DNA of 64,000 nt, taken from assembly GCA_002118135.1 (NCBI GenBank), contig BDIU01000069.1:63641-127640 (forward strand), given 5' to 3'. Below the pieces are notes generated by a model. It saw only the letters and a program-made list of their open reading frames with translations, searched no databases and was not told the DNA's origin. A program made the position numbers and the translations under genes. The stretch is from Trebouxia sp. TZW2008. Its lineage: Eukaryota > Chlorophyta > Trebouxiophyceae > Trebouxiales > Trebouxiaceae. Below are positions 4,936 through 63,430 of this stretch, piece by piece (position 1 is the first letter of the stretch; each line of letters opens with the position of its first letter).

Positions 4936-7900
4936 TCAATACGCTGCGACACCAGCAGTCCTAGCACCAAGAGCAGGGCTGTTGAGATCTCTGACAATTT
5001 CCTGGAATTTGGTAATATGCCGTAGAATGAATTCATTGCCTTTGCTGCGTGGAGCATTGACCTCCTCTATACTGATCAGTTCTGCACCTGAGTCTGAGTC
5101 CTTGCTGATGCTGACTTCAACATCAGCTGCAGATTGCATGGTGCCTGCTGATGCATCACCTTGACCATTCCATGTTTTGCACTGACTTGTGCTCTGCACA
5201 GCAAGACAATTTCTTGAGCTTTTCAATCATGCCAAGAGAGCAGATGCGCGTTGGTAACGCGCTGTTCTATAGTGGCTGGATATTGTTGAAAGCAGCTTGT
5301 GCAAATGTGCATGCACAGACATGCTTCTACATGCAGAGTTACAGATCGCATAACCGAAAGCCATCAACAATGCAATGCATCCAAACAACCATATTTTCAT
5401 CATACGTGATTGCCCGCGTTTCACGCAGTGTCATGGCAATGCAATCAAGAAGTAAACTTGTACCAAGTCTTGCAGGAACTGCCATGATTGACACATAAGC
5501 TGTAGCCACCGCTGATGAATCACAAGCAATGCAAGCTGTTACAACTTGCCTGCAGGTTGTCGCAGGAGCATGCACACATAGAAACACAATCTAAACAATT
5601 TCCATGAGCCACGGCATGGGATGTGACGTTGGAGACTTGACACTGTGACCTGTCAGGCCTCTCAAGCATGCACACAGGCACAGGGTGGCTCAGGACCACA
5701 AGTGACAGCCAGCATTTCACCTCAAGAACTCTGAGCTGCTCTTTCACAGCAGCCTCATCTGTGTCCATGAGAGCAGCCAGCTTAGGCAGGCTGATGGTGG
5801 TGTACAGCTTCAGAAATTGCTTCAATACTGGTAGCTGCCGCTGCTGCTCCACAAAAGACATGAAGCCCCTCAGCTGCTGCCTGTAGGCTTCCTATAAGCA
5901 AGGAAAAAAGAATGCTCAGCAAAAATCTTCATTTGACAAGCGTACCGCCATGACTGCTGCGCTACTGATGGTACAGCTTCAGAAATTGCTTCAGTACTGG
6001 TAGCTGCTGCTGCTGCTCCACAAAAGACATGAAGCCCGTCAGCTGCTGCCTGAAGGCTTCCTGTAAGTATGGAAAAAATGCTCAGCAAAAATGTTCAGTT
6101 GACAAGGGTAGCGCTATGACTGCTGCGCTACTGATGGTACAGCTTGTTTGAGCACTGGTAGCTGCCGCTGCTGCTGCCGCTGCTGCTCTACAAGGACATG
6201 AAGCCCCTCAAATGTTGCCTGTAAGGCTTCTGTAAGCATGGAGAAGCAACTCTTGAGCTGCTTTGCTCAGAACAAGACTTCATGGGCAACAAGACTGATA
6301 GGACAATGGTGGTGTACAGCTTCAGGAACTGCTTCAGTACTGGCAGCTGCCGACGCTGCTCCACGAAGGACAGCAAGCCCCTCAGCTGCTGCCTGTAAGC
6401 CTCCTATAAGCAGACAAGTATCTCGCAAGCAATGCTGTTGGATGTCAATCAGGCACAGCACACGATGGCTTCAGAAACTGCTTCAGTGTGGATAGCTGCC
6501 GCTGCTGCTTCACAAAGGACATCAAGCCCCTCAACTGCTGCCTGTGTGCCTCCTGTAAGTGCCAAGAGTTCATGCTGAGCATGTTCATTACAGAGCGTAG
6601 CATATTCAGCAGAACTTTGCAATTTCCTTGAGTGATTCTACACTGTTTTGCATCAGAACCTTTGTATCACAGAGGCTGTAACAGAGACATTGATATAGGC
6701 ATTGATGGAAAGTACATGGTGCTGTGACTTTGTGCACAGCACCCAAATAGGACATGCAAGAAGGGACGCTGAAGCAGACAAACAAGTGCCTGATGCACAT
6801 CTCACCTGATTGCTGTTGACTGTCAGGTTGTCTAGCCCAGGAGGCACAGCAGCCACAAACTTGGGACAGGCATAGGTGAACAGCTCATGTACCACACCCC
6901 CAATGCCTTGAACAGTTCTCACCTGACCTGCTGTTTTGTACCACAGCACCAGCAAGGCAGCTTACATCTAACCTCTGGAAATGTACTGTCTTCTGTACAG
7001 CTGCTGATAAAAGGATGTGATGGCTGTGTTGAAAACCTTGCCTGCCCCTCAACTGAGTGCTGTGATATAGTATGAGCATGGCAGGTGACACCTGGTTCCG
7101 GCAGGTGCTGATATGCAGGCTTTTCTTTTCTTTTTCTGCAGGCATTCATACAGACAGTGTCAAAGACAGGTGGTATTGTGACTTTGCAATTGCTTGGGGC
7201 AATTCTCACCTGATTGCTGTTGACAGTCAGGTTGTCTAGCCTAGGAGGCACAGCAGCCACAAATTTGGGACAGGCATAGGTGAATAACTCATCCACCACA
7301 CCTTCCAGGCCCCTCTGCATGCGCTGCATCTTCTCATTGTACCTGCAAGGTACACAGAAACTGAACGCATCCTAAGGCAAAGCTCACATGCATTTTGGAC
7401 CATGCATGCGCTGCAGCTTCTCGTTGTACCTTGGAGACACTCAGCGATTGCACTCGCAAAAGCACCTTTGCATGCATTGACATGTACAGCAAGCTTCAGT
7501 AGGACCTATTTTGTGCACATTGAGACGGTTCACTGAGCTACCCAAGGACAAGAATGTCATGCGACTGCATGAGCAGGTTTGAGCCTGAACTCAAATGTTG
7601 TGATGACCATTGGCCTTGATTAGCATGCAAAGGCTGATTGCGGCCCCAGCATCAATGTCAGAACTTAGATCTCCTATACAGTCTTGCTTGATGTATCTGT
7701 AGCTGCTTGGCTGTAAAGAAGCACCATGCACTATCATGCTTTCCAGCTTAGCTGAAAGTATGATTCTGAGCAGTGATACTGTGTGCTGAGACTTCAAACC
7801 CGCGGTCCACAGCTTCCCACAGCAGTTGCCATGCTGTCACATAGCATCATTAAATGCAGTGGTAATGTCACCATGCAAATGCAGAGCACATGCAGTAGCT

Positions 7901-10900
7901 GTGCTTCCGCAGCATCAGCACAAACTGTGGCAGCTGAAACCAACGTCACTACATGTGCTCTGTAGCAGAAAGACTTTGACACCGCTTTGCAGCATTGCTG
8001 TGTGACAGTGCTTGAGCGGCTGCCTCTTTACAATTTCAGACTCATCTCTGCTGGTGAAAGCAATAGCATGCCGTGTTGTCTGTGCTCAATATCATATTCC
8101 GAGCCACGCTACATTGTTTACGACCCCAAGTTGAGCTCTGATGGTGAAAGCAATAGCATGCTGTGTTGTCTGTGCTAATATCAACTTCCGAGCCAGGCTA
8201 CATTGTTTAAGACCTGAAGTTGAGCAGCACTGCACCATTGACTGCAGCCAAAGTTTGGGCCATGTTCTCCGTGAACCGTTTTGTGAGTATGCGGCTCAAG
8301 GATTGGCTTGAAGAAGTGCAAACAACGAGACTTGACAACAAAAGCGTGGAGTTGCAATCCAAATTTGCTGCCATAGGACACCATATTGCTACTGGCCAAG
8401 ACCATGCAGGCTGTGTGGTATAGATAGATGAAGCCAGGGTGGTCCCTAGCTGCAGATCCTTTTCCTCAGGCTACATTACAAAACTATGAACTTGAGTGCT
8501 AGCCTGTTCGGCTCATGTATGATTTCCAAGTTCGCTATGCACCTGATCATCATGTACTTGAGGGCCAGCACTGATAGCTGCTGTGCTTTCACGGTGCATT
8601 TCGACACTATGACATTGAGTGCCGGCACTTTCAGGTCATTTGTGTTGGAGTTCACTATGTACCTGTCAGATGACATTTCTAGCTCATTCGGCTACCCCAA
8701 GCCACAGATGAGCTGGAGGGGTCAGCTGACAGGCACATAACCTACTTCAGAACAACAAATCAGCAGGAAAGTCTGACAGCCTCATAATGCACGCTTCAAG
8801 ATTAACAGGCTGCTCAGCAGGCACTTGGTGCCTGCCTGCATCTGCACCAACCATTGGAGCATGACATGAGTTGCAGCAAGCCGCAGCATGCTCAATCTTT
8901 CTTGACTGATGTGTGACTAATGTGATCACGCTTGTGCGTTCCTGCAACAATGCCTTCGATGTAAGATGAGTGGCTGACAATGTACTTGCCTTTGTTTGTG
9001 ATGTACTTTTCTTCTGTATGTGGGGCAGGAGAATGTCTGAAACAAAGACCAAGGTCAAAATATTTGCTTGAAGTACAAGCGAATCAGTGAATGACTTACT
9101 TTGAGGGTGTTGGTCACTGACTCATGCACATGTCCAAGAGATGCAGGGTACAGCCAAAAAGAGACTGATTTGCTTTTGTTTTGAGAATTTGGGCAATTTA
9201 TTTACTTTCTCTGAGGGAGTTGTTCCGACTGTCTCATCTACGTGTCTGAGCAGCATGTCTTAAGACAGGCTGGGTAGAAAATGACAGTGTCTGCCTCACT
9301 TGTCTGTTGAGAGTGTGGATGAGTGAGTGAGTGACTGACTGACTTACTTTTCTTTCAGGGTGTTGGTGACTGACTCATCCACGTATCTAAAGGATGCTGG
9401 ACACAGTGAGGTGGTGACTGCCAGCAAGGCATACATCTGCTCGTTCTTCTTCAGAATCTGGTCATACTGTGCGCTGCGCTGGTGGTATGCTTTGACCCTA
9501 CACAAAGCAGACAGCTGTTAGTTGCCATGTCAGAATGTCGCATGACATTCCCAGCAGCTACACTGAACCATTAGATCAGTATCCCGCCTGATGTTCATCC
9601 CCAGATGATCTGATGATACTGTGCGCTGCGCTGGTGGTATGCCTCGATCCCACACAAAGCAGAAAGCTTTTTATTGCCGTATCAAGTTGCTGCACATTCT
9701 TCTCAGTGTAGCATCTCATGCTGCTGACCTCTCAATGGCATGCTGCAAGACAGGCCAGAGGCTGCCCTGGATTGGACTGCAGGACATACTTGCAAAGGTA
9801 CACAGTGTGAACCATGACCATGTAGAGTGCATTCACCAACCAGCGAAAGCAATGTATATCATCAGAGTGCAGAAGTGTGATCTAGTTCTACTTTGGAGTC
9901 AGCGACCAACCTGTTAATGTAGTTGAGGACAATGTTGAAGCACCGCGCAGCATCCAGGTACCGCTGTAGCATCAGATAGGAGAAGCCAGCATAGTAGTAT
10001 AGAGCAATGTTGGCGCCTGCTACTTTTGGGGTCAACAGGTTGCCGGTCTTGAAGGGCTGAAGGGGCCCAAGTGCCTTCAGGGCTAGATCGTACTCTCCCA
10101 AAAGGCAGTGCACGCGCAACAGGCCCACCAGACTGAAGTAACCCATGGTGCGTAGCACATTGCTGGTGTGGCCTTCGTAACCTTCTGATTCCACGAAGCG
10201 CCTTTGAGCATCTGCAGCAGCATCACAGCGTATGAGACCATGGCAAACATGGGCCGAAGTGCCTTCAGGGCTAGATCGTACTCCCCTAGGAGGCAGTGCA
10301 CACGCACAAGCCCCACCAGACTGAAGTAGCCCATTGTGCGTAGCACGTTGCTGGTGTGGCCCTCGAAGCCCTCTGCTGCCACAGACCGCCTTTGAGCATC
10401 TGCAGCAGGAGCACTTGCAATGAGTGCAATGCAGTGTAAATTGTGAAGTGTGCCCTATTTATATGAATCAGACATGACGTGATGTTTTCGAGAGCATCAA
10501 CCAATGGAATTGGAGTTTATGGTGTCATTGAGGTGAAACAAGACTAAAAACAAGACACACCATCCAAAGTGAATCCCAGATGACACCTAACTTGTCCAGC
10601 GGCTACTACCTATGCATGCTCGATATGGGGACTGCAGATTTCATCATCTGTGCATGACCAGCGCTCAATGAGGTAAACAAGACAGTGCTCCACCAGCCCT
10701 TGATTTGAGGCGTATGCTGGCTTGCGCTGTACATCACAAGACACAGACGTGCAAGATGGATCTCACCGATTGAACTCAGATTCTGGATACTGCCTGACAG
10801 ATGCAACTGCTGCTACCTATGCCTGCTTATCACAAGGAGGCTGCAGACTTCACCATTCATGGTCAAGACCCTATCAGGCAACAGAACAATGAGAACAAGA

Positions 10901-12478
10901 CCTACAATCTATGCATAGTCACCATTTAATGAAGAGGGACAAGGCAGAACTCACCATCTGAAGCCAGATCCCGGACCACCCCTGACTTATCAATGAGACC
11001 AGTCAGATAATGCAAGACCCCCTGCAGGTCCCACACCCCCTCGCACTTCTTCAGCAGTTCCAGCTCGTGCGGCGACTTCTGCGCCAGCTTCCCTCTGTAC
11101 TGTGCAAAGGACTGGAACTGATAGATGAACTCGTCTACCATATCCCACAGCCTGCATGCAGTGTCACATAGTTTGGCACAGGTGTCACATTGTGAAGCAC
11201 AACTTTGCCATGGAAATCTGACAGTCTAGCTTCCTCTCATACTGTGCAAAGGACTGGAATTGATAGAGGGGCAGCTCTTGTTGTTTTGGCCTATTCATTT
11301 ACGCCACTTGTCCCACAGCAAAAAGATTTGGTCTACAAATGATGAACTCGTCCAGCATATCCCACAGCCTGCATGCAGCGCAGCGTTTTGTAGGCCCAAC
11401 TGCACATTGCAGGTCAAAAGTACTCATTGGGGCTTTGATGACCCCAGAGGTGTCTGCTTTACTATGCCAAGCACTGAAATTGATAGATGAACCCATCTGC
11501 CATATCCCATAGCCTGAATACGAGTGGGTCACCACGTTCTCCATAAATGGTCGAAACTGTGAGACTGTCTAGTGAGCAATTCAACAGTGTCCTCAATGAA
11601 CTTGATATGAACGCATCTGCAAGCTGTCCCTTTGCCAGGGCCCAACAGAAGCACCGCAACAAGCATGCGCTTTCAGTTTGTAAACATCAGTTGGTCTGCT
11701 CCATGTTGGCACTGGGCATGACAGGTCTCCATTAAGTGAAGCAACAGCTTGGGCAGGTGTTACTGCACGACGCAATGTGCACAGCTACATTTTCGCTGCA
11801 ATTTGCACAGCCTCAACAAGGTAGTCAAAAGGGTGTGGCAATCCTCACCAGCCGTTGGGCAATTGCATGTTGACATGGCTCTGGAGCAGGACTCTGAACA
11901 GGTTTACGTAGTTGTCCCATGACTCACAACGCTGCTCCAGGGTTGGCTGTGCTGTAGCATACAGATGGCGGAAATACATCTCCTGCAAGCATGAATGAGG
12001 GCTGCATACAATGTGCAGAAATTTCATCTGAATGCTCAGGCTGGCGCAAAACTTGAGGCAGTATCGAGTGCTCCACAATGTGCAACATCATTACAAGACA
12101 AGCCAATTCGTTTGTGAACACTGTGCTTGCAGACTTTAGCAGAATGAGCACCTTGTATAGCAAACAGAAGACATGATCTCCATCCACCAGATCTGCAATC
12201 ATGTGCACTGGAGGCCAGCTGGTGGTCTTGAAGAAACGCTCGCTCAGCTTTGCAAATGACACATCGTACATAGAAAAGATTTCCCGAATGTTGCGTTCCC
12301 TGCGATGGCAGAACAGGCCTGTAGTGATCAACCACTCGGTCATTGCGCAAATGCTGCTGATTCCTTCGAAGATAGCCCTGCACCTGATATGCCGATACAA
12401 GTAGACGACGAACTGCTTGACCAGGTCCGGTACGGGCTCGGAAAAGGTTTCTGGGGCACGACCTCCATAGGCTTCCAT
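4936..12478 (-). CDS. eIF3L: Eukaryotic translation initiation factor 3 subunit L
   Basis: This is a subunit of the eIF3 complex, which binds the 40S ribosome and promotes recruitment of initiator tRNA and mRNA in the cytosol. Nine exons join in phase: 12478-12384, 12299-12152, 11982-11849, 11151-10955, 10211-9911, 9497-9348, 7342-7210, 5891-5721 and 5193-4936. They give 528 residues (human eIF3L has 564). Family landmarks are clear in order: LSERFFKTTSWPP and EMYFRHLYA, then LWDMVDEFIYQFQSF, MGYFSLVGLLRVHCLLGEY, ALYYYAGFSYLML, KNEQMYALLAV, DELFTYACPKFVAAVP and, in the C-terminal PCI region, QLPVLKQFLKLYTTISLPKL. The start is the Met of MEAYGGRAP; the upstream in-frame GTG is not needed. Several introns contain partial copies of neighbouring exons, described separately. 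Identity is very secure. The junction into the last exon is the least certain. Confidence 0.95.
5960..6552 (-). repeat. Array of four partial copies of eIF3L exon 8
   Basis: Upstream of the full exon (acceptor boundary at 5891) lie copies starting at 6060, 6230, 6403 and 6552, a spacing of 169, 170, 173 and 149 bp. Each repeats the 5' end of the exon (EAYRQQLRGFMSFVEQQRQLPVLKQ, variously mutated) and most keep a TACAG or TATAG acceptor. Only the last copy in transcript order continues into the rest of the exon. The copy at 6230 has lost one base at the junction and gained a QQR expansion. Confidence 0.9.
6806..6930 (-). repeat. Partial copy of eIF3L exon 7
   Basis: The 3' portion of exon 7 (HELFTYACPKFVAAVP to LTVNSNQ) is repeated 400 bp downstream of the real exon, with its GTGAGA donor intact at the end. 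The upstream part of the exon and its acceptor are missing. Confidence 0.85.
8048..8225. repeat. Two-copy 90-bp direct repeat in an eIF3L intron
   Basis: A 90-bp unit beginning ctgctggtgaaagcaatagc is repeated at 8138 with a few substitutions, including the GAGCCA...CTACATTGTTTA segment. It lies in the 2-kb intron between exons 6 and 7 and has no protein match. No other gene is visible between 7343 and 9090. Confidence 0.8.
9090..9655 (-). repeat. Fragments of eIF3L exon 6 on both sides of the exon
   Basis: Upstream, about 9605-9655 repeats the first part of exon 6 (AYHQRSAQY, with the second half diverged). Downstream, about 9095-9130 and 9200-9245 repeat its last part (DESVTNTLK region plus the AAGTAAGT junction, partly decayed). 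The full exon is 9497-9348. The distribution fits the rule seen elsewhere: 5' pieces upstream, 3' pieces downstream. Confidence 0.7.
10250..10399 (-). repeat. Partial copy of eIF3L exon 5
   Basis: This is a copy of the acceptor and first half of exon 5, 188 bp upstream of the real exon start at 10211. It encodes the same DAQRR...GFEGHTSNVLRTMGYF...LALKAL stretch with few changes. It has no donor at its end and runs out of frame into the true exon, so it is probably skipped or used only as an alternative acceptor. Confidence 0.85.
11330..11545 (-). repeat. Partial copies of the 5' end of eIF3L exon 4
   Basis: At least two short copies of the acceptor and first codons of exon 4 lie upstream of the full exon at 11151. 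One is near 11373-11340 (LWDMLDEFI) and one near 11515-11465 (LWDMADGFIYQFQ, followed by a stop). Both are diverged. Confidence 0.75.
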
Positions 12479-16643: not shown

Positions 16644-19600
16644 TCACCATTCAACTGTAGAAGACACAACTCTAGGCAAAGCAGGCAAGCCACTCTGCTG
16701 TCTGTAGTCAGCAATCCTCTGCTTCAATGCAGTCACATGGTCATGGTCATCTTGCGACTGATCAAGCTGTCTGTCTGAAACATGATGCAGGCCCCCATGT
16801 GACGGCACCCTGATCAGACTTGCATCTGTGCGCCCTGGGAGCTGGTCTGAATAGACATGCTGTGCTGTGCTTTGCATGCTGTGCTTGGTTTGAACATGGG
16901 TATCCAGCTCAGCAGCCACTGACAAGGCCTCCTGTAGCAAGGCTGAAGCGCTGCCTTCTTCTTCTTCACGAGCATGCTCAAAATCCTTCAGAACAGCTGC
17001 CTCGTGAGAGCCAATGGTCTCAGAGTCAATAACATTACGGCTCTCAGGCTCCCTGCCCTCGGGGGCTGTCAAAGCTGCCCCCAGCCTTGCTGAGTCAACA
17101 GGGCTAGTGGGGACAGTCCTTTGGGCAAGGCTGATGGACACAAGCCCTGGGGCAAGGCTGGTGGGAGCAGCCCTTGGGGCAGGGCTGGTCGGGGAACGCC
17201 CCAGGCCAAAGCCCTGCCTGTTGGAGGCTGACTGAACAGGGATTCTGGCCTCAGCAGCTCCAGCTCGGCGAGCCCACAGGGTTGCTCGCTGCTCTGAGTC
17301 CTTGAGCTTGCGCTGCAAGTCTGCAACCTGCCACTGCAGCTGCTCACTGCTGGCTCTCCAAGACCTGTTGAAGAAAACAAATTGAAGAAGAAGAGAAAGA
17401 AGAAGATCACATACTGTAGCCAAGCTAATGAATTCAAGGGCGTGTACTGACAGTACAGCTTGTGTCCACAGCAACTGCTGTAGAATGAACCAACTGATCA
17501 GAATGGCCAGACCAGACCTGTTCCAAAAACAGCTGGCATTGAGCAGCATGACCATGATCTTGATGATGTCAGATGTTGCTGAGTAGTATTGTGCATGGCC
17601 AGACTGTTCGTCTGCCTGCCCTTGCAGTGCTGCAACTCATTGCTTCAACCTCACCAGCTCGGCATTTTGTCCACAGTCTCAGCCCAAATGGCATGCAACT
17701 ACGAATGCATAAGTAAAGAGAGAAAGAAAGAAGCCAACAGTGTCTGTCAGTCGTACCGTGCGCTGCCAGACTGCTCATCTGCCTGCCCCTGCAGTGCTGC
17801 AACCCGCTGCTCTAGCCTTGCTAGCTCATGCTGCTCGTCCTGGGCTTGTCTGCCAGCTGCAGTGCTGCTTGCCTGGGCCTCAGCCAGCTGCTGCCTCAGA
17901 AGGCCACATTGCTCTACACTCAGCCTCAACTGCTCCTCACCCTGCACCACAGAAAACACATGTGTACAAGTTGCATGATCTTGAGCTGTGTTGCTTACAA
18001 AAAAAGGTTGCTGTGAACGCCCGTCTTGGGTTTGCCTGCCTGCTGCAGTGCTGCTTGCTTGTGCCTCAGCCAGCTGCTGCCTTAGCAGGCCTCACTGCTC
18101 TACACTCAGCCTCAACTGCTCCTCATCCTGAGCACGCAAGTGGGAGGATTTGATGACTGGTGATGTGAAATGAGGGGACAGCATGACACTGATTTTTGGT
18201 ATGACAGTGGCAGCTGCAGTGTTACTTGCCCAGGCCTTACTCAGCTGCTGCCACAATAGGCCACACTGCTCTGCACTCAGCCTCAATTGTTCCTGATCCT
18301 GCAACCATAAGTGCTCACTGATACAAGCTGGTCTACTGGTAAGCTTGCATTTGTGAATGGAGCCTGTGCTCAGCAAGCCGTCATTTTCTGCACGCAGCCT
18401 CAACTGCTCCTCATGCTAAGCATACAGACCGTGCTTCCATCAAAGGCTGTATGACCTTGAGCGATGTGTGTGCAAATGAACCAGCACACTTGGCATGGTA
18501 TACTAGTCTGTGCTGTTGCTGTAGCTTGCATATATGGTCATGCAGATGCGTAAGCGCTTTGCTGCAGGCAGGCTGCTGATTGGAGCCAAGTGGGCTTACC
18601 TTAGCTTCCCCATGACTGTCATTGTCACAATCTTGCTAATCTGTGCTATCTTCCCACTTTTTGGCTGCAGGCAGGTTGAGAAATGGCGGCTTTGTTATAA
18701 CATCCTGAGAAAGCTAGGTACAGTCCACTTGGCCTGGCAGCCCTACCAATGTGTGTTGGTTCTCCAGCTTGCAGATATGATTGTGCAGGTGTGTAAGCTC
18801 CTTGCTGTTGGCCACGGCCAGCTTGGTCTACACAACCAGTAAGGAGAAAGAGTCCAACAGAAAGATCAGTCAAGACAGCGTCGTAAAGAGGTACTCTTAC
18901 CAGTTTGTGCTGGTTCTCCAGCTGGCAAATATGGTCATGCATCTGCGTGCTGAAGTGACCAGGCAAAGCAGCTGAAGTGAACAATAAAACAGGAGAGAGT
19001 GTCGAGAGAGTGTCACACATGGTGCTTGTAGGCGTGCAGTTGGCATGGCATGCTTACCAATCTGTGTTGGTCTCCAGCTTACATATGTAATCATGCAGGT
19101 GTGTGAGCTCCTTGCTGGAGGCAAGCAGTTTGGTAGGAAGATGAAATAGCCCTGAGACATGTCTGAAAAAGCTTAATCCACTGAGCAGACTGGCAAACAG
19201 ACTGGCAAGGCAGGCGTTTGCGCCTGTCCACCAGCTTGCGCCGATCTTCCAGCTTGCGCATGTGGTCATGCAGGTGCGTGAGCTCCTTGCTGTTGGTCAC
19301 AGCCAGTTTGGTCTGCGCGGCCAGTTGACGCAAGCATTCCAGCAGAAAGCTCAGTCATGACAGCATTGTGAAGTGGCAGCCTTACCAGTTTGTGCTGATT
19401 CTCCAGCTTGCGGATATGGTCGTGCAGGTGTGTGAGCTCCTTGCTGTTGGCCACAGTCAGCTTGGTCTGCACAGCCAGCTGGCCCAGCATGACCTGCACC
19501 TCGCCCTCTGACTCACCCACCTGCCTCCTCAATACCCCGACCTCCCCCTACACACCATGCAAAGCCTGTCTAATCACCAGAACTAATCAATGGTTGCTCT

Positions 19601-37400: not shown

Positions 37401-38696
37401 ATCAGAGCTCAGCACACTTTCATCATGTACTGTATCACTCGCTTTTAGACCCATCCTGGTGCTCTTTCTGCAGCCTGGAGTGCACAGGCAAGCCTGGTGT
37501 GCAGTGAATGATCACTGCAGTGATCAGGGCCCAGTTTGGCGCTGCAAGAACTGCATTCTTATGGAGCCTGTCATTCGGAGGTGTCAAGCAGGGACACCAA
37601 GCTACAAGAGGCCTTCCAGATTATTATCACCCAAGCAGTCCAATCTGACCTAGCACAAAAGCTGATGAATGAATGTCTCCTTCTTTGCAGCCTGGAGTGC
37701 ATAGGAGAGCATGGTGTGCAATGCAAAATAACTGCAGTAACAAGAACTCAGCATGACTTGACCTTGAAATTCTAGTCTTACTGTCCCACCCGTTCTGGTG
37801 CTCTGTTTGCAGCCTGGAGTGCACAGGCGAGCCTGGTGTGCAGTGAACGATCAGTGCAGTGATCAGGGCCCAGTGTGGCGCTGCAAGAAATGCATTCTGA
37901 TGGAGCCTGTCATGGAGGTGTCAAGCCGGGGCACAAATCTGCAAGAAGCCTTTCAGAGCAATGTTACCCAGGCGCCCCAACCTGAATCAGATATTGAAGT
38001 AGACCTGCAAGGGGTCGAATGGTTGCAGTACAAAGGCAAGCACAGATGGCTTGCTGCTGCTGCTGCCTACGCTAATGCTGATGACCCCTTGTGCCTCTCG
38101 AAACTGATGCAGCATGCTGGTGTTGGACTTGAAAAGTCTGATGAAGCAGATACACCAGCCTGTGTCTCCTGTCGTAAACAAACTACACTTTTACAGCACT
38201 TAGAAATGCTGCATGACTGTGAGCAAAGGCACTTTGGCTTTGACTGAGGTTGCAACTCCATCTGTGGAGTTACAGCTGGAACGCCATACATCTGTGGAGT
38301 TGAAAGGTTCTGTTGATTCGTTTGCAGGCAACTTTCGTAGAAACGCTGCACCGCATGCACAGGGCTTCTGGTACTTCACAACTGAGTACCCTGTGTCAAA
38401 AAACTTGCCACATTACATCTATTGCCAGAAATGGACTTCTGCCATTTACACTTCTAGTGTCAAGAGATCTGCCACATTACAGCCTGTTCCTTGAAATGCC
38501 AGTTCTGCCTTGTATTTTGTGTTTGCTTCTAGCAATGTGACGTAGTCACTCTTGATGTGCAGGAAATTTTGGTAGAAGCGCTGCACCGCATGCACAGGGG
38601 TTCTGGTACTTCACAGCTGAGCACCCTGTGTCAAGGACCTGGTTCCAAAGAGTGCTGTGGCACTGCTCGCCCCCGACTCAGTCCTTGCTAGACTGA
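34488..38696 (+). CDS. Vps62/DUF946-family protein, copy B (5' exon missing)
   Basis: Six exons in the same order and phases as copy A: 34488-34645, 35143-35277, 35922-36109, 36671-36821, 37813-38035 and 38563-38696, about 329 residues to the stop. Exon 5 is 223 bp in both genes. Conserved blocks are HLHHEEQYLPCSVEWYM, FYAFNGPY, GAHDGDWEHFTVR, IAYVAKGAHGLY and the end FWYFTAEHPVSRTWFQR. The fifth intron begins GCAAGC, a GC-AG intron with an otherwise strong donor, where copy A has GT. The first exon was not found, and must end in phase 1. Introns are swollen by arrays of partial exon copies that differ from those in copy A, so they arose or were replaced after the gene duplication. Confidence 0.85.
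35278..35739 (+). repeat. 153-bp array of Vps62-B exon 2 ends and donors
   Basis: The exon-end to donor junction recurs at 35278, 35431, 35584 and 35737, exactly 153 bp apart each time. Each copy encodes variants of LEVQQHH...QHQLHIEIEPLARGGMHA and ends at GTAAGT, except the second, where the donor has become GAAAGT. Copies lack an acceptor. This is the most regular array in the window. Confidence 0.95.
36165..36240 (+). repeat. Partial copy of Vps62-B exon 3
   Basis: This copies the 3' end of the exon at 35922-36109 (GPYTI...WEHFTV), just downstream. A frame-breaking TGA is present and the donor GT is replaced by AT. Confidence 0.8.
36460..37184 (+). repeat. Copies of Vps62-B exon 4 on both sides
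   Basis: Upstream, about 36463-36555 repeats the 5' part of exon 4 (LDPELNMVGCYYHAHRPQDG, partly frame-shifted) after a GACGCAG acceptor. Downstream, three copies of the 3' part (QPIAYVAKGAHGLYTG) end near 36994 (GTAGGT), about 37055 (decayed) and 37182 (GTGACG). The full exon is 36671-36821. This exon shows both halves of the positional rule. Confidence 0.9.
37350..37770 (+). repeat. Partial copies of Vps62-B exon 5
   Basis: Three copies of the 5' end of exon 5 begin near 37352, at 37474 and at 37691, before the full exon at 37813. The intervals are about 122, 217 and 122 bp. They encode variants of PGVHRRAWCAVNDQCSDQGP. Two keep a TGCAG acceptor. The 37474 copy reaches CILMEPVI before diverging. 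Confidence 0.88.
38320..38420 (+). repeat. Partial copy of Vps62-B terminal exon
   Basis: It begins after TTTGCAG at 38327 and encodes NFRRNAAPHAQGFWYFTTEYPVS, then diverges. The full terminal exon starts 235 bp downstream at 38563. Confidence 0.88.
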
Positions 38697-50011: not shown

Positions 50012-50016
50012 TGTAA
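50012..50016 (+). terminator. Candidate polyadenylation signal TGTAA
   Basis: TGTAA is the usual poly(A) signal of green algae. Here it follows the C2-gene stop by 127 bp, a normal 3' UTR length. A five-base match alone is weak evidence. Confidence 0.4.
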
Positions 50017-54021: not shown

Positions 54022-57000
54022 ATGCTCAAGGGACAATCCAATGGCAAAATGGTGAACGGCGTGCATGCCAAAAATGGCGCAAACCCCCCTCCTCGCAAGC
54101 TGGTCATCAAGCCCCTCAAGTGTATGTCACGGATCGGTCACACGCTGCTGTTGTGGCTGTCCAACGCTTATGCTGAAGCTTGTGGCCGGATTGCAGCCAA
54201 GCCGAAGCTCCCAGCAGACTTCGAAAGTTCCACTTGGGCAAAACTCAATGAAGCTGTGATGGCCGTACACAGCAAGACAGGTGTCAACCTCAGTCTGGAA
54301 GAGCTATATAGGGTCAGTGTGATCACAAGCTCAGCACGCCTTGCATGCCACATACGTTCGCCGCGAGTCTCAATTGCGCTCATTGCGGTGTTTGTGCGCA
54401 GGCAGTCGAGGACATGTGCTTGCACAAGATGGCAGATAGGTTGTACAACAACCTTCAAAAGGCATGCCTCAAACTCCCCATCTGCAAGAAGCTCAAGCCT
54501 TGCATCACAGCCAGTCAACTGCCACCTGCTTGCAGGTCTGTGATGCGCACATTCAGCAGCAGCTGCAACAGCTGGCCAGCAAGCAGACGTCAGGATCTGT
54601 GATGTTTTTGGAGCAGATGAACCAATGTTGGCAGGATTATTGCAGCCAAATGCTCACCATACGTTCAATCTTTCTGTACCTGGATCGCACATACGTCATT
54701 TCTGACTCCACAGTCCGCTCAATCTTTGACATGGGTTTGCGGCTGTTCAGAACCCATTTGGCCACACACCCAGAGGTACGATCATCTGGATGAATTTGTT
54801 GCAAATGCCAGCAACAGATTGCTGCTGCTTCAGAATGTTGCCTTTTCTACCCAGTCTGAATCGTTGTCAAACCTTGTGCATAAAACACTTTGCCTTTTGC
54901 CACAGGCACGGGTGACGGCAGCAGAGCCAGCGTGTGCGATAGCCGCCTGCAGCACCTGTGCAGTTGGTTTGTGAGTTTAGCATGTGCCAAGCCAACGCAT
55001 TGTGTGTGCCCATAGGTTGAGGACAAGACTGTGTCAGGCTTGCTATCCCTCGTAGAGGCTGATTGCAAGGGCAAAGCAGTGGACAAAGCACTGCCAAAGC
55101 ATGTGGTGCTGCTTATGTATGTTTCAAGATGCTGTATCTGCTTTCAGGCAGAAGGCAAACCAGTGTCCCGGTTGCTATGTCTCACACAGGGTCCTTTTAA
55201 ATGCTGTTAAATGCTTATGCTTGTGTCCGCTGTGAGTCAATGTCGTCCGCTTGGTCACAGGTGGAAGACAAGACAGTGAAAGGACTGTTGTCTCTCATAG
55301 AGGCTGATCGCAATGGTGAGACAGTGGACAAAGCCCTGCTGAAGCACCTAGTGCGCATGTTCATCAACTTGGGCACCTACTCTGGCAGTTTTGAGGCGCC
55401 TTTCTTGGAAACGACCACGCAGTTTTACAGCTTGGAAGGGCAGCGGCGCATGCAGGAATGCGATGTGCCTGAGTACCTGTTGCATTGTGAGGTGCGATTC
55501 CGACGCTCCCTACAACATGCAATGTGTTGTAGTCGTCATCAACATGACTCTCTTCACAATGATCATGACGTATTCTATGTTAGCAGTCACAGTCTTTGAA
55601 CTTGTACCAAAACAAGTGTCACAAAGTTTGTGGATGAGCACGATCGCTGCAATCACAATCATGTTGCGATTGTTGAAGATGGTACTGTTGATGGCATATT
55701 AGCCATGCAGAGGCCTGGCAAGTTATGACTGCAGCCACACACGTGTAGCATCTGTGCTCAAATGTGGGTTTCAACATTGTTATCATCATCATTCTTATTG
55801 AAACAATTATGGCTGATTACCAGCAGCAGGTTTTTTGGCTGCCGCTGCTGCTGCTGCTGTTGCTGCTGCTGTTGCTGCTGCTGTTGCTGCTGCTGTTGCT
55901 GCTGCTGTTGTTGTCATTACTTTTATTGTCATGCAGAGGCGCCTAGCTGTGGAGTATGAGCGGTGGCAGCAATACTTGGACACACCAACCAGGAAGCCGC
56001 TCATTGGTATTGTGGAGCAGCAGCTGCTGGCGGCCCACATGCCTGCTATTCTGGACAAGGGCTTTGACTCCCTCATGACCCAGAAACGGTGAGCTGCATG
56101 TTCTCTCTGAGCAAACTCACTGTCAGAGTCCAAACCCCTCATTTGAGTCAAGGAGAAGGGCTTTCAATCCCTCATGAACCAGAAACGGTGAGCACCAACA
56201 AAAGGACAAGAGCTGGAATTTGCTGTTGAGGGAAAACAGTACTGCCATATGCCCGCCATTTTGGTCAAAGGCTTTGACTTCTCACGACAAGATGAGCATA
56301 AAAACAAAAACCAGCTGGAAGATGTCATTGATATTGAAAATCTCTGCCGTATGCCTGCCATTCTGGACAAAGGATTGGACTGCCTCGTGACCCAGGAACG
56401 GTGAGCACAAAAACAGGAACAACTTGGCAAGTGTCATTCAGAAAAAGAAGCGTTGCCATATGCCTGCTGTGCTGGACACGGGCTTTCACTCATTCATGAT
56501 ACAGAAATGACACAGAAATGGTGAGCATTACATGTAACAAAGATAGCACATCAGCATAAGGCTGCTGTTCTGGACAAGGATTTTGATTCCCTCATGACCC
56601 AGAAACGGTCAGCACAAAACCGGGCTTAAACTCGAAATTGGAGTGGATCTGAGGAATGGCAGTGCTGCCATACTCTAACCATTTTGGTCAAGGGCTGTGA
56701 CCCCCTCATGGCCCGCACATGATGAACACAAAACCAGAAACAAGCTGGAGAATGTCATTGAGGACAAGGGAGTGTTGCTGTATGCCTGCTATTCTGGACA
56801 AAGGCTTTTGATTCCCTCACGACACAGTAACGGTGAGCACAAAACACAGGCAAGAGCTGGAAATTCCTGTTGAGGAAAAACTGTGCTGCCGTATGTCTGC
56901 CGTTTTGGATAAGGTCTCTCACTCTTTCATGACCCAAACACGCTGAGCACACAATATGGCAAAACAAGTATATCAGCATATGCCTGCCAAGCTGGACAAG

Positions 57001-60000
57001 GGCTTTGACTTCCTCATGACCCAACAGCAGTGAGCACAAACAAGAACAAGCAAGTGAACTTGTTCTTGTTAACCGAGTCAAACAGGACGTCTGCTTGCAA
57101 CAGGGAATTCACACTGGCAAGTGTTGCGCGGACCTTTTGCATGCATACAGAGTGCAATGCTTTTGTGCGATGCAATGTCCTTATAAGATTATGTCAACAG
57201 GAATAATCATAATTGTATCACATTTTAGCACATGAGCTAGATGTGCATGGCCCAAGTGATTGTAAGTTGCAAAAGTCGTGAAATACCTGTTGAATGCAGC
57301 CCTGTGGGAGCCAATCAAGCGCAAGGTCAAGATATGGTCTCAAGCTGTGATTGAACTTTGTTCAATGCCTGTTGGACCTGTTGCAACAGTTTATGAAGCT
57401 GTGCAGCATGCTTGAAAGTGAACATGCGCGTCTTGGTGTGCAGGGTGCCTGATCTGGCACGTCTGTACGTGCTGTGTGCACGCATCCAAGCCCTGGACCC
57501 CTTGAAGGCTGCCTTCAGGGACTACATTGGACGTACTGGTTTGGCCCTTGTGCTTGACGAGGAAAAGGTAATGCTACTGCCCAGCAGAGTTAGGCACAGT
57601 TGGCAACTTGTTCCATCTATGGCATCTCGCCTGTATCACTTGGCCATCTTCTTCATCGCTTCCTCTGTACAAAAGCATTGCAAGGCATTTCAAACTTGGA
57701 TTCTGGCCACGGTCTGTGTGACAACAGTCTTGCGAGCAGGATGGCATTCAGGCAGCTGCAAAAGTTCACTCATCCAGATAGCTTACGTGAGTACATGACC
57801 TTGTGCAATATATGTATCAAATGTTGTAGAAACCCGAATGGGGAGGGTGGACAGGGGGGTTCTTGGAGACACTGTCATGAGATCTACAGTAAACTCTGTT
57901 TGTCATGATACTTATTGTAAGACCAGTCTCGATGTAAGGACAACGCCAATGGTACCCAATCACTGCATTCTGCAGTAGTCCCTCTGAGTAAGGACAATTT
58001 GATGTGTGGACAAAATGCTTTGTAAACAAAGCATTTATTATGAAGAGAATTTTCTATGAAAGCATATATGCAGGACAAGGACATGGTGTCAGCTCTGCTA
58101 GAAATGAAGACTGTGCTGAACCAGGCCTTCCAGCAGAGATCACGATCAGCACCCTTTGGTTGTTGACAAGAGAAAAGATGTTGCCGGACAAAGACATAAT
58201 GTCAGCTGTTGTAGAAATAAAGTTTTGGCTTGCGAGCGCAGGACAAAGACATGGTGTCAGCTCTGCTGGAAATGAAGCTACAGCTGGACACTGTGCTGAA
58301 CCAGGCCTTCCAGAAGAATGAGCAATTCAGCAATGCCTTGAAGGAAGCCTTTGAGAAGTTTATCAACCAGCGCCAGAATAAGTAAGCCTTTTGCGTTGAA
58401 AATCAGTCCATGACTTATTTTTGGTGTCGAGTTACACACCTGTGCTTGTGCGTGCGAGCGTGCGTGCGTGTGCAAAAGCTACATAGTTGTGTGTGAGAAT
58501 TTCATCGGTCAGCGCCAGAACAAGCAAGTATCATGAGCTGGCGCCTAGATGTCCGTCTGCATGTGTTTTCCGTGTTGGCTGCAATCCACAAGCCACGTTT
58601 CTGCATATGCATTAATAAGCTGCGAAAGACAGAGGGCCTTGATTGTACAGTAAACTCTCTTTGTAAGGACACTCGATGTAAGGACAATCTCGATGTAAGG
58701 ACAAGGCCTTTGGTGACCAATCACTGCATACTGACTGCAATGGTCCCTCTGAGTAAGGACAATTCGGTGTAAGGACAAGTTTCTTGGTCACCAAAGCAGT
58801 CGTTACAAACAGAGTTTACTGTAATCGTGGTCTGCAATTGTGGTCTGAAGGCAGCTGGCCAATCAGTCAATGAGTGTGATTGGAGGCTGCCTGCCTGCTT
58901 GCTTGCTTTTGTGCTTGCTCCTTTATGCAATGCTCGATGTATTCACTGATGCATGCTGCAGGCCAGCTGAGTTGATGCCCAAATATGTCGATGTTCAATT
59001 GAGGGCAGGCACTTGCTGCCTTTTTGCTGAAGTGATGTATCTGTGATTGGCATGGACGGTGTGTTTAGAACTTTACATGACGACAAAAGACTGCAGAAGT
59101 TTGCAAGCACTCATATGCCATAGGTACAGTTGCAGGACCTTGACAGATTCACTGATGCTTGCTGCAGGCCAGCTGAGTTGATAGCCAAATATGTTGACGT
59201 TGAGTTGAGGGCAGGCAACAAGGGCCAAACAGATGAGGAGCTGGAAACCACCCTGGACAAAGCCCTCATGCTTTTTAGATACATCTCGGTAAGCCCGCAG
59301 CTCAGTGCTTGCCACCTGATCTGTCTGCTCAGCGCTGCCAAAGTTCTTACACAGACACATGTCACACACCTTAGCCCTCCCATGATGTGTTCAAAAGCAG
59401 TCTTGAGGCTCAAATTAGGCTTGGACAAAGCTCTCATGCTCTTCAGATACACCGCAGTAAGCCATCACACACCGCACACTATAGAGAGTGACCGATACTT
59501 ACAAGATTGGGTCATCCCTATCCTACAGGCATAGAACAGTTGCACATAGACCACTTTCACAAAGCTCCTGCCTTGTAGGCAAGAGCAACCTATGTGTGCA
59601 GGCAGCAAGCTCTGCATACATCAGTTGCTCACAGCCACAAGGCTCAAGCGTGTGGAACGCCTCAGAAAGTGGAGATTGGCTTTGTGACTGCTGCTTTGCG
59701 CATTTTGCTGTGTTCTTGATGCATTCAAGAGCGTATGGACTGCAATTTAGGCGAGAATGCGGATTGAGGCTTTCCTCAGGAAATGCGCATGCATTACAAG
59801 CCATTCTGTATGTACAGGGCGAGGATGTGTTTGAACCATCTCATAAGACGGATCTAGCAAAGCGTCTGCTGTTGGGACGCAGCGTCAGCACTGACGATGA
59901 GAAGAACATGATCGACAACCTGAAACTGTACTCTGTTGCAAACTTTATGTCTGCTGTCTGAAGGGCAAGGATGTGTTTGAGGCGTTTTACAAGAAGGATC

Positions 60001-63000
60001 TAGCAAAGCGGCTGCTGCTGGGGCGCAGCGCTAGCACTGACGCTGAGAAGAACATGATCACCAAATTGAAGACAGAGTGCGGCAGTCAGTTCACCAATAA
60101 GCTAGAAGGAATGTTCAAGGATGTGGACCTGAGCCGAGAGATCATGATGTCCTTCAAATCCTCTGTAAGTCCACTGCGTTTCTGAAAGCAAAGGGGAGTC
60201 ATGATGGTTCGTGAGGACTAAGGGAGAGCTTTGCATCTGTATTTTTAGTTCACTGGCTGTGCGACCGCCTTGTCAATAAGCTGGAGGGCATGTTCAAGGA
60301 TGTTGACCAAAGCCGAAAAAACCATGCTGTCCTTCAAATCCTCCGTGAGTGCTCCATATTTCTATAATGGCACTTTGTGCGTGAGCACTTTCTTGTTTGC
60401 ACTAATGTATTTGCCCAAAAAAGGACGGGCACCCAGATAGATTTGCCGGCTAGGGGCCCTTGGGTACCATGTCAACTGAGAGCATCATCTGCTTTTACAG
60501 GTTGCCAGGTGGCTGTTGGTGTGCATTGCTCGGTTCTGTCTGCTGGTAGATGATGCCAAGCTAAGACATGATCATGTCATTCAGCTCACCAAGGAACCTT
60601 GTCATCTCGCACGTGGGTTGCCTGCGTGCTGTCGTCCAAGACTATCGTATTAGTGTATCGTTTTGCTGCTACCTGGACCTGTGAAGTTGCAGGCAGTGCA
60701 TAGTGCTATTCAACTTAGAGTTTGCTGAAGAGATGTCACTTTCTAAATGCCAGGTTGATGCGCAATTGTGCAGGGGTCTGCGTCATGCCTGCCTCAAAGC
60801 ATTGACATGCATCCCCTGCGTGCTGCACACACACAATTCCACTGGCAGCATCCACGTTTCCGGCAAGATATCTCTGCACAATTAGCCCTAAGCTGTCAGT
60901 CAGGCTCAGCACCAAAACTCCCGTCATCAAGCCTCCTTATCTGTGCGCCGGCGTCTGTCAAGTCCCAAGTGCCTCTCAGCACTTGCTTTTACCATGACAG
61001 GATGCGACTGCTGGTGCATCACTCAGCAGGTGGTTGCTGAATGAACCCATCTGTTTGTATGCAGGTATCCTTGAAGTCCCGGCTGCCTGATGCTGGCATC
61101 GACATCAATGTGAATGCGCTGACCGGCGGGTATTGGCCCACCTATCCTCACCCTTTCTTGATCAGGATGGCATTGTCTGAACCTCCCTTGCCTGTGTGCA
61201 GGTATCTGTGAAGTCATGGCCACCTCTCAGCATTGACACGAATGTGAAGTGCTTGGCAAGAGCTTACTAGAGGCCGTCACCTGAATGGTGCTTGATTGTG
61301 CAGGTTTCTGTGAAGTCCCGGCCGCCTCCTGGCATTGACATGAATGTGAATGTGTTGACCAACGGATTTTGGTCTACCTATCCCCCACTTTTCCGCCAAA
61401 TAACACTCCACAAGCAGTATGAAGAAGTCTGTTGCAAACGCACTTGTCTGTGTGCAGGTATCTGTGAGGAGTCGGCTGCCTCCTGGCATTGACATGAACG
61501 TGAACGTGCTGACCAGCGGGTACTGGCCCACCTACCCACACTTGGAAGCCAAGCTGCCTGATGAGCTGTCCCGCTACCAGGCTGTCTTCAAGGTAGTTTG
61601 CGTTTCACACAGAGTGCATTGCAGAGCATACTGCATTGCAGAGTTGCCAACACTATGTGAAGGAGTTGTAGCATGCAGTACGCCAAATGCTTTTTGTTTT
61701 CCTGACTCTCACTCCTGCTTGTGCAAACATCACCAGTCCAGCAGAAGTAATGTGCCCGTGTCATGTCAGCTGTGCACTTTAATTGCCAGAAGCATGGCAG
61801 GTATTGCTACGCAGGATTTCTACCTGAGCAAGCACAGTGGACGGCGGCTGGTGTGGCACAACAGCCCTTTGTGTTGCACTGCAACAGTCATATTGCCATA
61901 TAGCAGGCTGAGCTGCTGCATCATGCCATGATTTGTGCTTCGCACTGTAATGCGGTGCAGGACTTCTACTTGAGCAAGCACAGTGGGCGGCGACTGGTGT
62001 GGCACAACAGCCTGGGCAGCTGCGTCATGCGCGCCCACTTCACCAAGGCGCCAAAGGAACTCTCTGTCTCCCTCTTCCAGGTATAATTGCTCAGGGCTCT
62101 CCTGTGCGATGCAATGCCTGTCAAATTGAGCTCTAGGGGTTCCTGATCTGAAATTGATCTCCACATTTGCAACAGCTGCTGTGATCATGATCTGTCAAGC
62201 AGAGCTTCAAGTACAGCTTGAAAATTGTGTCACAAGTCTTGAAATTGCGTCATCGCCTGGGCAGCTGTGTCATGAGGGCTCACTTCATCAAGGCACCCAA
62301 GGAACTCTCTGTCTCCCTCTTCTAGGTCTGGCCCCCACACCTGCAGCTGCTGATGCCCTGCCTGTTAAGTAGAACTCCAATTACCTGTTGCACTTGCAAT
62401 GCGTCTGCAGAACAGAGCTCTCTGCCCTTCATTCCCAGTCTGTAGTCTGGAAAGCAATGACTTTTGATTTCACATGTAAGAAGCCAATACCTCTGGTTCC
62501 CTCTCCCAGGTCTGGCCACACAACAAATCTATCTACGCCTGTCAAGCAGACACTCATTTCAGCCCATGCACTTACAAAATAAGCCTTATCACGTCAGTCA
62601 CAGGTCACAACGTGATACGATGTCTGCCGAGTAGAGCTCCCTGTTTCCTGCTCCAGGCACCTGCAACAGCCGACTTTCTGAGACATCAGGGAGGCAATCA
62701 GCATCAGAGACAAGCTGTGAATGACTGTGGTGACTCCATCGAATTCATTGCTGTTCTTGCTTTGATGCAGGCTGTGGTGCTGATGCTGTTCAATGATGTC
62801 GAGGCATTGAGCTTGACAGACATCAGGGAGGCAACTGGCATCGAAGACAAAGAGGTACGGCGCACCCTGCAGAGCCTAGCGTGTGGCAAGATCAGGGTCC
62901 TCAACAAAGAACCTAAGGTGCGCTTGTGACGCTTTGCTTTGTCATGAACAATGACAATGACTTTGTCAGCAGACCATTGTCAAGTTCATGGGTAGTGAAG

Positions 63001-63430
63001 CTTTGTCATACTGATTTGTCATATGCAGTTTGCCATTTCAACCCATGTTTTTGTGTGTGGGCATGTTCACACACGCCATGCATCTGTCAATCATGCATAA
63101 ACACAAAGCTCCATTCTCAAGAGCAGGCAGGCTTCAACCTCATCAACAGCACCATCTGCCCATACCCTGGATCTTCGGCATATGCGGTTTCAGTTGCTCG
63201 CTCATGTCAACGATTGATTGATTGCCGTGAAAACCTAACCCAGCTCTATGGCCATGGTAATCCTTGCTGTTTCACAGGGCCGAGACGTCGAGGACAATGA
63301 CGTGTTTCACTACAACAGCGGATTCACGCATCAGCTGTTCCGTGTCAAGATCAACAGCATTCAGTTGAAGGAGACAGTTGAGGAAAACAAGAAGACAAAT
63401 GACCAAGTGCTGCAGGACAGACAGTATCAG
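54022..63430 (+). CDS. CUL4: Cullin-4 (CRL4 ubiquitin ligase scaffold), 3' partial
   Basis: Cullin-4 is the scaffold of CRL4 E3 ubiquitin ligases; it binds DDB1 at its N-terminus and RBX1 at its C-terminus. Fourteen exons join in phase: 54022-54121, 54197-54312, 54402-54461, 54536-54775, 55261-55491, 55937-56088, 57444-57567, 58242-58381, 59168-59288, 59964-60164, 61458-61592, 61961-62080, 62771-62917 and 63278-63430, 680 residues. Cullin-4 landmarks in order: [52 protein letters not shown] block, [65 protein letters not shown] and DRQYQ. The last exon or exons, with the winged helix and neddylation lysine, lie beyond the window. Intron 3 begins GC (54462). Most introns from the fourth onward hold partial exon copies. 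Confidence 0.97.
55016..55120 (+). repeat. Partial copy of CUL4 exon 5
   Basis: It begins after a CCCATAG acceptor and encodes [16 protein letters not shown]...KALPKH, a diverged copy of the start of the exon at 55261, 245 bp upstream of it. A GTATGT follows at about 55116, so alternative use is possible but would drop conserved residues. Confidence 0.88.
55842..55915. repeat. TTGCTGCTGCTG microsatellite in CUL4 intron 5
   Basis: Regular alternation of CTG triplets with TTG every fourth triplet for about 70 bp, ending 22 bp before exon 6. It makes the polypyrimidine side of that acceptor unusually long. Confidence 0.9.
56095..57035 (+). repeat. Array of nine CUL4 exon 6 ends with donors
   Basis: After the full exon (donor at 56089), the last 50-60 bp of the exon ([17 protein letters not shown]) plus donor and about 50 bp of intron recur nine times with a period of about 87-120 bp. 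Donor-site positions are near 56188, 56290, 56401, 56521, 56608, 56720, 56833, 56943 and 57030. Those at 56188, 56401, 56521, 56833 and 57030 read GTGAGC; 56608 reads GTCAGC; the others have lost GT. No copy has an acceptor. Confidence 0.92.
57885..58055. mobile_element. MITE copy C (Tc1/mariner- or pogo-like)
   Basis: Starts TACAGTAAACTCTGTTTGT and contains CGATGTAAGGACAA, CCAATCACTGCATTCTG and CCCTCTGAGTAAGGACAA. The right end is decayed (AAGAGAATTTTCTA). It lies in CUL4 intron 7, 19 bp before a partial copy of exon 8. Confidence 0.85.
58074..58230 (+). repeat. Partial copies of CUL4 exon 8
   Basis: A copy at 58074, after an ATGCAG acceptor and 168 bp before the real exon start at 58242, encodes [12 protein letters not shown] then skips to TVLNQAFQ. 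A second, near 58187, encodes [12 protein letters not shown] and has lost its acceptor. A donor-end copy (INQRQNK-like, FIGQRQNK) lies downstream near 58500-58530. Confidence 0.88.
58646..58823. mobile_element. MITE copy D (best preserved)
   Basis: This 178-bp element has terminal inverted repeats TACAGTAAACTCTCTTTGTAA and TTACAAACAGAGTTTACTGTA. It contains tandem CTCGATGTAAGGACAA phrases and no coding capacity. The TA at each end fits TA target duplication of the Tc1/mariner/pogo superfamily. It lies in CUL4 intron 8. Confidence 0.92.
58963..59020 (+). repeat. Partial copy of CUL4 exon 9 start
   Basis: It starts after TGCTGCAG and encodes [16 protein letters not shown], 205 bp upstream of the real exon start at 59168, then breaks off. 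Confidence 0.88.
59395..59462 (+). repeat. Partial copy of CUL4 exon 9 end
   Basis: This 3'-end copy ([14 protein letters not shown]) is followed by GTAAGC, 170 bp downstream of the real donor at 59289. With the 5' copy upstream, this exon shows both sides of the rule. Confidence 0.88.
59816..60346 (+). repeat. Copies of CUL4 exon 10 on both sides
   Basis: Upstream, 59816-59935 encodes EDVFEP...[21 protein letters not shown], a near-complete but diverged copy of the start of the exon at 59964; it has no donor before the stop. Downstream, 60262-60346 repeats the 3' end ([14 protein letters not shown], then frame-shifted) followed by GTGAGT. Confidence 0.88.
61065..61440 (+). repeat. Array of three CUL4 exon 11 starts with acceptors
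   Basis: Copies start at 61065, 61202 and 61304, each after an intact TGCAG acceptor, before the full exon at 61458 (spacing 137, 102 and 154 bp). They encode variants of [19 protein letters not shown]; two reach WPTYP or STYP. All continue into non-homologous sequence before any donor. Confidence 0.92.
61817..62520 (+). repeat. Copies of CUL4 exon 12 on both sides
   Basis: Upstream, 61817-61870 after ACGCAG encodes [18 protein letters not shown]. Downstream, 62256-62325 encodes [22 protein letters not shown] then TAG and GTCTGG, and a shorter echo of the exon end lies near 62490-62515. The full exon is 61961-62080. Confidence 0.9.
62655..62720 (+). repeat. Decayed fragment of CUL4 exon 13
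   Basis: Sequence near 62678-62715 repeats the [17 protein letters not shown] stretch of the exon at 62771 with frame-breaking changes, after a CTCCAG acceptor-like site. Confidence 0.65.

Follow-up and report, generated by a model that had tools for sequence, protein, structure and literature searches.

Partial exon copies in the introns of a Trebouxia contig

The stretch studied here is 64,000 nt of contig BDIU01000069.1 (C68) of Trebouxia sp. TZW2008, whose assembly comprises 527 contigs and 68.5 Mb; this whole stretch is called the window. It holds the genes for CUL4, eIF3L and two Vps62 paralogs (Vps62a and Vps62b) together with a hydrolase gene and a coiled-coil gene, and the introns of these genes carry many partial copies of the neighboring exons. 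Sequence comparison marks the source as a lichen-type green alga, either Trebouxia itself or a near relative: CUL4 shares 87% identity with that of Trebouxia sp. C0004, the best relative of eIF3L is 88% identical, and the relatives of the Vps62 genes include Trebouxia C0010 and C0005 proteins. The exons of four genes were fixed by protein-to-genome alignment with related proteins, giving a curated set of 35 exons (CUL4, 14; eIF3L, 9; Vps62a, 6; Vps62b, 6) and 31 introns; two tiny pieces (12 and 8 nt) were dropped and the edges of CUL4 exons 3 and 4 were edited by hand. A further 17 ab initio exons, belonging to the hydrolase and coiled-coil genes, were chosen by hand from the output of a self-trained gene finder, which learned splice consensus sequences of about CAG/GTRAG and TGCAG/G.

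Each exon with 250 bp of flank was searched by BLAST against its own gene region; the rows obtained are matches, some of them overlapping, so that not all are independent events. The four curated genes gave 51 matches: 22 carry the exon's acceptor and lie upstream of it, 16 carry its 3′ end and lie downstream, 10 contain exon sequence only, and three are paralog matches between Vps62a and Vps62b, which were excluded from the counts. The 38 copies that cross an exon edge are direct and partial, and one of the downstream copies, from Vps62a exon 6, represents the end of the last modeled exon and is thus without a donor. All 10 exon-only matches lie in the adjacent intron, five upstream and five downstream. 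Among the 51 matches we found no acceptor-type copy downstream and no donor-type copy upstream of its exon, nor any whole-exon or inverted copy. The hydrolase and coiled-coil genes yielded 22 further matches (10 acceptor-type upstream, seven donor-type downstream and five exon-only), none of which broke this side rule or copied a whole exon. A copy exists for 20 of the 35 curated exons, and 19 of the 31 curated introns hold one.

An earlier note on this DNA had counted more than 20 such events in the gene families of the window, an observation confirmed by the 38 boundary-crossing copies in the curated genes and the 10 and seven in the two further genes. Its rule that acceptors and 5′ ends are copied upstream, and 3′ ends and donors downstream, held without a reverse case in the curated genes, and its claim that surplus copies are always partial, with the sole complete exon at the far end, was borne out in all six. 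Acceptor-type and donor-type copies were not equal on either side of these exons, each type occurring on its own side only. When the window was compared with itself, 92 of 93 repeat pairs were direct, and 81 of these lay within 2 kb of each other; in the self-comparisons local direct repeats are dense and inverted ones almost absent, with a few short palindromes at low thresholds. The related proteins P0001 (eIF3L) and P0121 (CUL4) contain each copied stretch once, with no added stretch.

Exon copies on other contigs

Outside the window we sampled 16 random 10-kb loci on other contigs, with 64 strong ab initio exons. The gene finder agrees exactly with 22 of the 35 curated exons, so exon edges at these loci are approximate. 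Near direct pairs were present in 15 of the 16 loci, and 22 of the 64 exons had a match, of which 19 had a usable local copy, the other three being an inside-exon repeat, a palindrome and a suspect exon. Confinement of the copies to the window, which the earlier note had named as a refutation of its reading, is contradicted by these counts. The 54 match rows comprised 25 acceptor-type upstream and 12 donor-type downstream; the others were exon-only or inside-exon, and two were short and inverted. Four rows ran contrary to the side rule (three ‘whole’ and one acceptor-type downstream), all from predicted exon 6965-7062 of locus L011, and were set aside on our judgment that this exon is itself a copy of exon 6068-6225. 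At L011 6389-7124 a predicted exon has three whole-length copies with steps of about 150-340 bp; it may be a decoy that has been copied many times or a genuine exon duplication. A profile search of the genome with HSP70 gave four overlapping partial matches, on contigs C150 and C165, that fit the side rule on our own reading of the profile coordinates. A genome search with the TCP1 profile gave no clear partial copies, and cullin matches show the CUL4 exon 10 copy.

Sequence divergence between the copies and their exons is about 5-30%, and copies are present on many contigs. Because of this divergence they are unlikely to be assembly duplicates, and we give an assembly artefact almost no credence. 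Equally hard to credit is the insertion of introner-like elements or miniature inverted-repeat transposable elements (MITEs). A MITE-like family of about 178 bp does occur within the introns here and recurs throughout the genome, but the exon copies are direct and match their own neighboring exon, and the notion that the spacers are mobile elements was dropped when three of them were searched and each matched only itself in the genome. Introners add intronic sequence genome-wide by spreading copies of themselves to many genes (PMC9860276), whereas the exon copies here are local and gene-specific. The MITE-like family is represented at 58641-58823 of the window, with related stretches at 57885-58055, 26606-26774 and 27325-27503; terminal inverted repeats span 25 nt (92% complementary) at 58641-58823 and 16 nt at 27325-27503, and the other two stretches have none. 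Forty of 1451 first-look candidates in the genome were scored, and full-length matches had 88-97% identity.

Probable short tandem duplications across splice junctions

Among repeats no more than 2 kb apart, the ratio of direct to inverted was 98:0 in the window and 143:1 at the random loci (241:1 in total). First-order steps had medians of 178 bp in the window (n = 64) and 156 bp at the random loci (n = 85), and 104 of the 149 fell at 90-215 bp. Under strict scoring 45 of the 149 first-order pairs are contiguous, and in 39 of these the unit measures 62-210 bp. Under sensitive scoring the flank covers more than 70% of the gap in 17 of 48 exon pairs with a step of at most 260 bp. Contiguous examples that include the flank are eIF3L exon 8, whose nearest upstream copy is a tandem unit of 169 bp, Vps62b exon 2 and Vps62a exon 6. 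Units with one splice junction and both intron and exon parts were seen in the curated genes, in the two further genes and at the random loci, and part of the CUL4 exon 6 array has been re-duplicated as a 420-bp segment. Boundary steps modulo 3 were 14/9/15 and 15/11/11, a spread over the three frames that is expected when the surplus is intronic. When repeat ends were tested for splice motifs without gene models, these were enriched (5 of 90 repeats versus 0.24% of controls), but the sites past the strict threshold were too few for the result to be relied on.

We consider it probable that recurrent short tandem duplication with near-neutral decay explains the copies. Frequent short, local, head-to-tail duplications would have hit this Trebouxia-like genome. 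Within exons, only those that keep the frame would be likely to survive. Across an exon-intron junction a duplication could survive readily, since a complete exon remains at the far end while the extra copy comes to lie, splice site included, within the intron. Such copies would then decay about neutrally and duplicate again, building up series of defunct splice sites. The side rule follows because a tandem duplication crosses one splice junction and the exon must stay intact; being automatic, it is evidence for tandem duplication and not a new law. Direct orientation, the strict side rule, presence on other contigs and roughly neutral decay are what we observed in favor of this explanation. 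The duplications were presumably made in break repair or replication, and the copies would normally not be spliced in.

Decay of the copies

By codon position, copies differ from their exon by 0.107/0.075/0.218, values in which both lineages are mixed, and from other copies of the same exon by 0.181/0.170/0.277. Changes polarized with at least two copies number 41/31/52 by codon position when copy-specific and 2/0/15 when exon-specific, which indicates a constrained exon and near-neutral copies with a mild third-position excess. Sixteen of 18 indels in the copies shift the frame. The copies thus appear to decay at a roughly neutral rate. That they serve as coding exons is disfavored by the frameshifts and by the spread of copy-specific changes, though a third-position excess remains between copies. 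As to whether the copies are passive debris or regulatory decoys, which the earlier note had left open, the changes at all codon positions and the frameshifting indels favor debris.

Missing flanks and the excess at exon ends

Under strict BLAST scoring, copies seemed to be cut off precisely at the splice site: homology ran no more than 26 nt past the exon edge in 31 of 38 pairs from the window and in 26 of 37 from the random loci. This idea was dropped once sensitive scoring showed that 40 of 81 pairs have more than 26 aligned flank columns. The tandem duplication across junctions proposed in the earlier note is supported by direct orientation, the side rule, arrays with steps of about 150 bp and flank homology in about half of the pairs. 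Under sensitive scoring, pairs with at least 30 flank columns have an identity of 0.726 in the flank versus 0.845 in the exon part, which is near expectation if both flanks drift but only one exon copy does. Template switching, a spaced copy-and-paste in which exon ends are copied without flank and end at the splice motif via shared words (TGCAG, GTRAG), would fit the strict-scoring stops, and the three single-copy spacers look like original intron. It leaves unexplained why no acceptor ends lie downstream and no donor ends upstream, and the flanks that sensitive scoring recovers argue against it, making template switching an unlikely source.

Several observations weigh against tandem duplication as a full account. 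Under strict scoring 104 of the 149 first-order pairs are non-contiguous. In 43 close pairs, 47% have at most 26 flank columns, whereas simulated tandem duplications are without flank in 2-15% of cases at a divergence of 0.17-0.20 per lineage (the value reproducing the alignable flanks), 24% at 0.25 and 55% at 0.30; a spread of ages among the copies could narrow the gap between 47% and 2-15%. Families of copies at exon ends outnumber intron-only families by 27 to 4 in the curated genes, whereas with random placement about 27% of tolerated events would be expected at a boundary. The 27 exon ends, counted by hand, comprise 17 acceptor and 10 3′ ends, five of the 27 being exon-only; intron-only pairs number eight under a looser exclusion, of which two or more merely extend the flank of an exon copy, and form four families under a stricter one, of which one (58678-58794) lies inside the MITE-like element. 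This excess may be partly affected by copies of constrained exons staying detectable for longer than intron pairs, which was allowed for only roughly. The third-position excess in both copy-exon and copy-copy differences is not expected of strictly neutral copies, though it would arise if the exon had been copied at various times while undergoing silent change, and the copies hold 10 stops versus 17 expected. The 27:4 excess and the 47% flank loss are left over by simple duplication and were unforeseen in the earlier note.

Turnover anchored in the exon might supplement tandem duplication without replacing it. Since the constrained exon part stays alike, unequal exchange or slippage there would refresh and multiply the copies while the flanks age, which predicts arrays at exon ends rather than in intron interiors. 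Such turnover would account for the exon-end excess and for flank loss in about half of the pairs, and copies of the same exon are more alike in the exon part than in the flank (0.790 versus 0.755, with the exon part higher in 9 of 13 pairs), as they are in three arrays (0.794/0.862/0.896 versus 0.743/0.840/0.805). This gap is small, however, and differences on 40 copies are not clustered (mean z 0.05, standard error 0.13), so that no conversion tracts are visible and gene conversion was rejected. We hold exon-anchored turnover as a tentative addition to tandem duplication. Somewhat more speculative is the idea that exon ends are favored sites, where exons keep seeding or refreshing partial copies of themselves in the flanking introns, through anchored array turnover or copying tied to the junction; introns would then grow outward from exon edges, and across the genome new intron sequence would come mainly from these edges.

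The copies might instead be retained by selection as decoys, with splice sites that control or protect splicing. Of 39 chosen copies, 36 retain the splice dinucleotide (AG on 22 of 23 acceptor and GT on 14 of 16 donor copies), the scores of 11 of 23 acceptor and 7 of 16 donor sites are no lower than the lower quartile for true sites, and the third-position excess and the low number of stops leave a little room for selection. This retention is inflated because copies were chosen for an aligned site, and copy-specific changes and frameshifts look near neutral; selection for decoys is thus very improbable.

Relation to known duplications

The scale of the boundary-crossing copying looks new. In our searches of the open-licence literature we found no report of this pattern in Trebouxia, and no counterpart to its scale or to the exon-end excess. 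Tandem exon duplication, which gives alternative exons, also produces local direct copies of exon sequence, in that case a complete exon with both splice sites. Here, unlike in tandem exon duplication, no complete exon is copied in the curated, hydrolase or coiled-coil genes, and three such rows come from the suspect L011 exon. Passages of the Asterochloris genome paper (PMC6652019) do not mention the pattern.

A single tandem genomic duplication across an intron-exon boundary is described for potato RdRp (Ma, Lan and Niu 2016, PMC4974935). As in potato, the duplicated segment here joins the 3′ part of an intron to the 5′ part of the next exon and is direct and tandem; the potato case was a single event that gave rise to a new spliced intron, whereas here dozens of copies, from both exon ends, form arrays with apparently no sign of new intron or exon use. 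In the Rogers model, described in the same paper, introns are gained by duplication of an exonic AGGT segment. There, as here, tandem duplication adds intronic material of exon sequence, but the intron is cut from the duplicated exon, whereas our copies carry the exon's own splice site and lie on the intron side. A copy starting at the intron 5′ end, a feature of AGGT intron gain, was found in none of the 38 boundary and five upstream exon-only copies. Small tandem duplications also arise when CST and Pol alpha-primase fill in the ends of a break (PMC8355091), and are likewise short, direct and tandem; those were demonstrated in human and mouse cells in which breaks had been induced. With this break-repair route and the boundary-crossing potato case already published (PMC8355091, PMC4974935), the claim in the earlier note that a repair mechanism biased to 90-215 bp would be new is not supported in that form.

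Splice-junction duplications have been known as a single-case route to new introns, and here copies of this kind are present in large numbers (20 of 35 curated and 19-22 of 64 sampled exons). This genome offers a way to measure the frequency with which duplicated splice sites are passed over, used or made into a new intron or exon, and also suits the study of intron lengthening and of the repair pathway behind short tandem duplications. The copies resemble exons, which is a warning for gene annotators.

Positions of genes and copies

Table 1. Genes, exons and exon copies in the window (window coordinates)
Feature	Position	Strand	Remark
eIF3L gene, 9 exons	4939..12478	-	protein-to-genome alignment with P0001, 88% identical
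eIF3L exons 1-9	12384-12478, 12152-12299, 11849-11982, 10955-11151, 9911-10211, 9348-9497, 7210-7342, 5721-5891, 4939-5193	-	
eIF3L exon 8, four acceptor-type upstream copies	5971..6560	-	5′ ends near 6060, 6229, 6403, 6552
eIF3L exon 7, donor-type downstream copy	6783..6898	-	short exon-only piece upstream, 7403-7431
eIF3L intron 6, intron-only contiguous tandem duplication	8046..8225	.	unit about 90 bp; one of the 4 intron-only families
eIF3L exon 6, donor-type downstream copy	9088..9153	-	
eIF3L exon 6, acceptor-type upstream copy	9593..9684	-	
eIF3L exon 5, acceptor-type upstream copy	10251..10414	-	
eIF3L exon 4, upstream copies	11228..11519	-	11228-11267 (exon-only), 11341-11378, 11457-11519
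Coiled-coil gene, upstream and downstream copies	17582..20395	-	ab initio exons 17757-17941, 19386-19547, 20496-20639
Coiled-coil exon 27555-27724, acceptor-type upstream copy	27776..27895	-	
Vps62a gene	30536..33480	+	related-protein alignment
Vps62a exon 3, upstream copy	31232-31343	+	
Vps62a exon 5, upstream copies	32447-32565, 32170-32249	+	32170-32249 exon-only
Vps62a, downstream copy of end of last modeled exon 6	33355-33480	+	
Vps62b gene	34499..38693	+	related-protein alignment
Vps62b exon 2, downstream array	35341-35742	+	period 153
Vps62b exons 3, 4, 5 and 6, copies	36184-36234, 36455-36560, 36913-36997, 37131-37191, 37337-37738, 38323-38399	+	
Hydrolase ab initio exon 41004-41209, upstream copies	41257..41977	-	
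Hydrolase ab initio exon 43007-43092, three acceptor-type upstream copies	43312..43671	-	nearly full length, without donor
CUL4 gene, 14 modeled exons	54025..63430	+	extends beyond the window; alignment with P0121, 87% identical
CUL4 exon 5, upstream copy	55011..55109	+	
CUL4 exon 6 (55937-56088), nine downstream copies	56152..57035	+	7 reach the donor, 2 exon-only
CUL4 exon 8, upstream copy	58070..58137	+	
CUL4 exon 9, upstream copy	58941..59011	+	
CUL4 exon 9, downstream copy	59422-59463	+	
CUL4 exon 10, upstream copy	59816..59924	+	match stops at exon edge
CUL4 exon 10, donor-type downstream copy	60274-60350	+	
CUL4 exon 11, upstream copies	61044..61390	+	5′ ends near 61065, 61202, 61304
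CUL4 exon 12, upstream copy	61811..61866	+	
CUL4 exon 12, downstream copy of 3′ part	62255-62327	+	

A simple gene finder called several exon copies as exons, and a few of those called in the coiled-coil gene may be real exons. The protein stretch of CUL4 exon 6 is missing from the public CUL4 model of Trebouxia sp. A1-2 (P0122), possibly an annotation error caused by such exon copies. CUL4 exon 10 (59964) has an apparently unusual acceptor context, TGAAG, where its copy has TACAG. Tandem repeats also occur within coding sequence: the glutamine-rich long open reading frame at 23704-26103 contains repeats with steps of 42, 57 and 84 bp, and a predicted coding sequence at 799-1137 of random locus L004 contains repeats with a step of 150 bp, all multiples of three.

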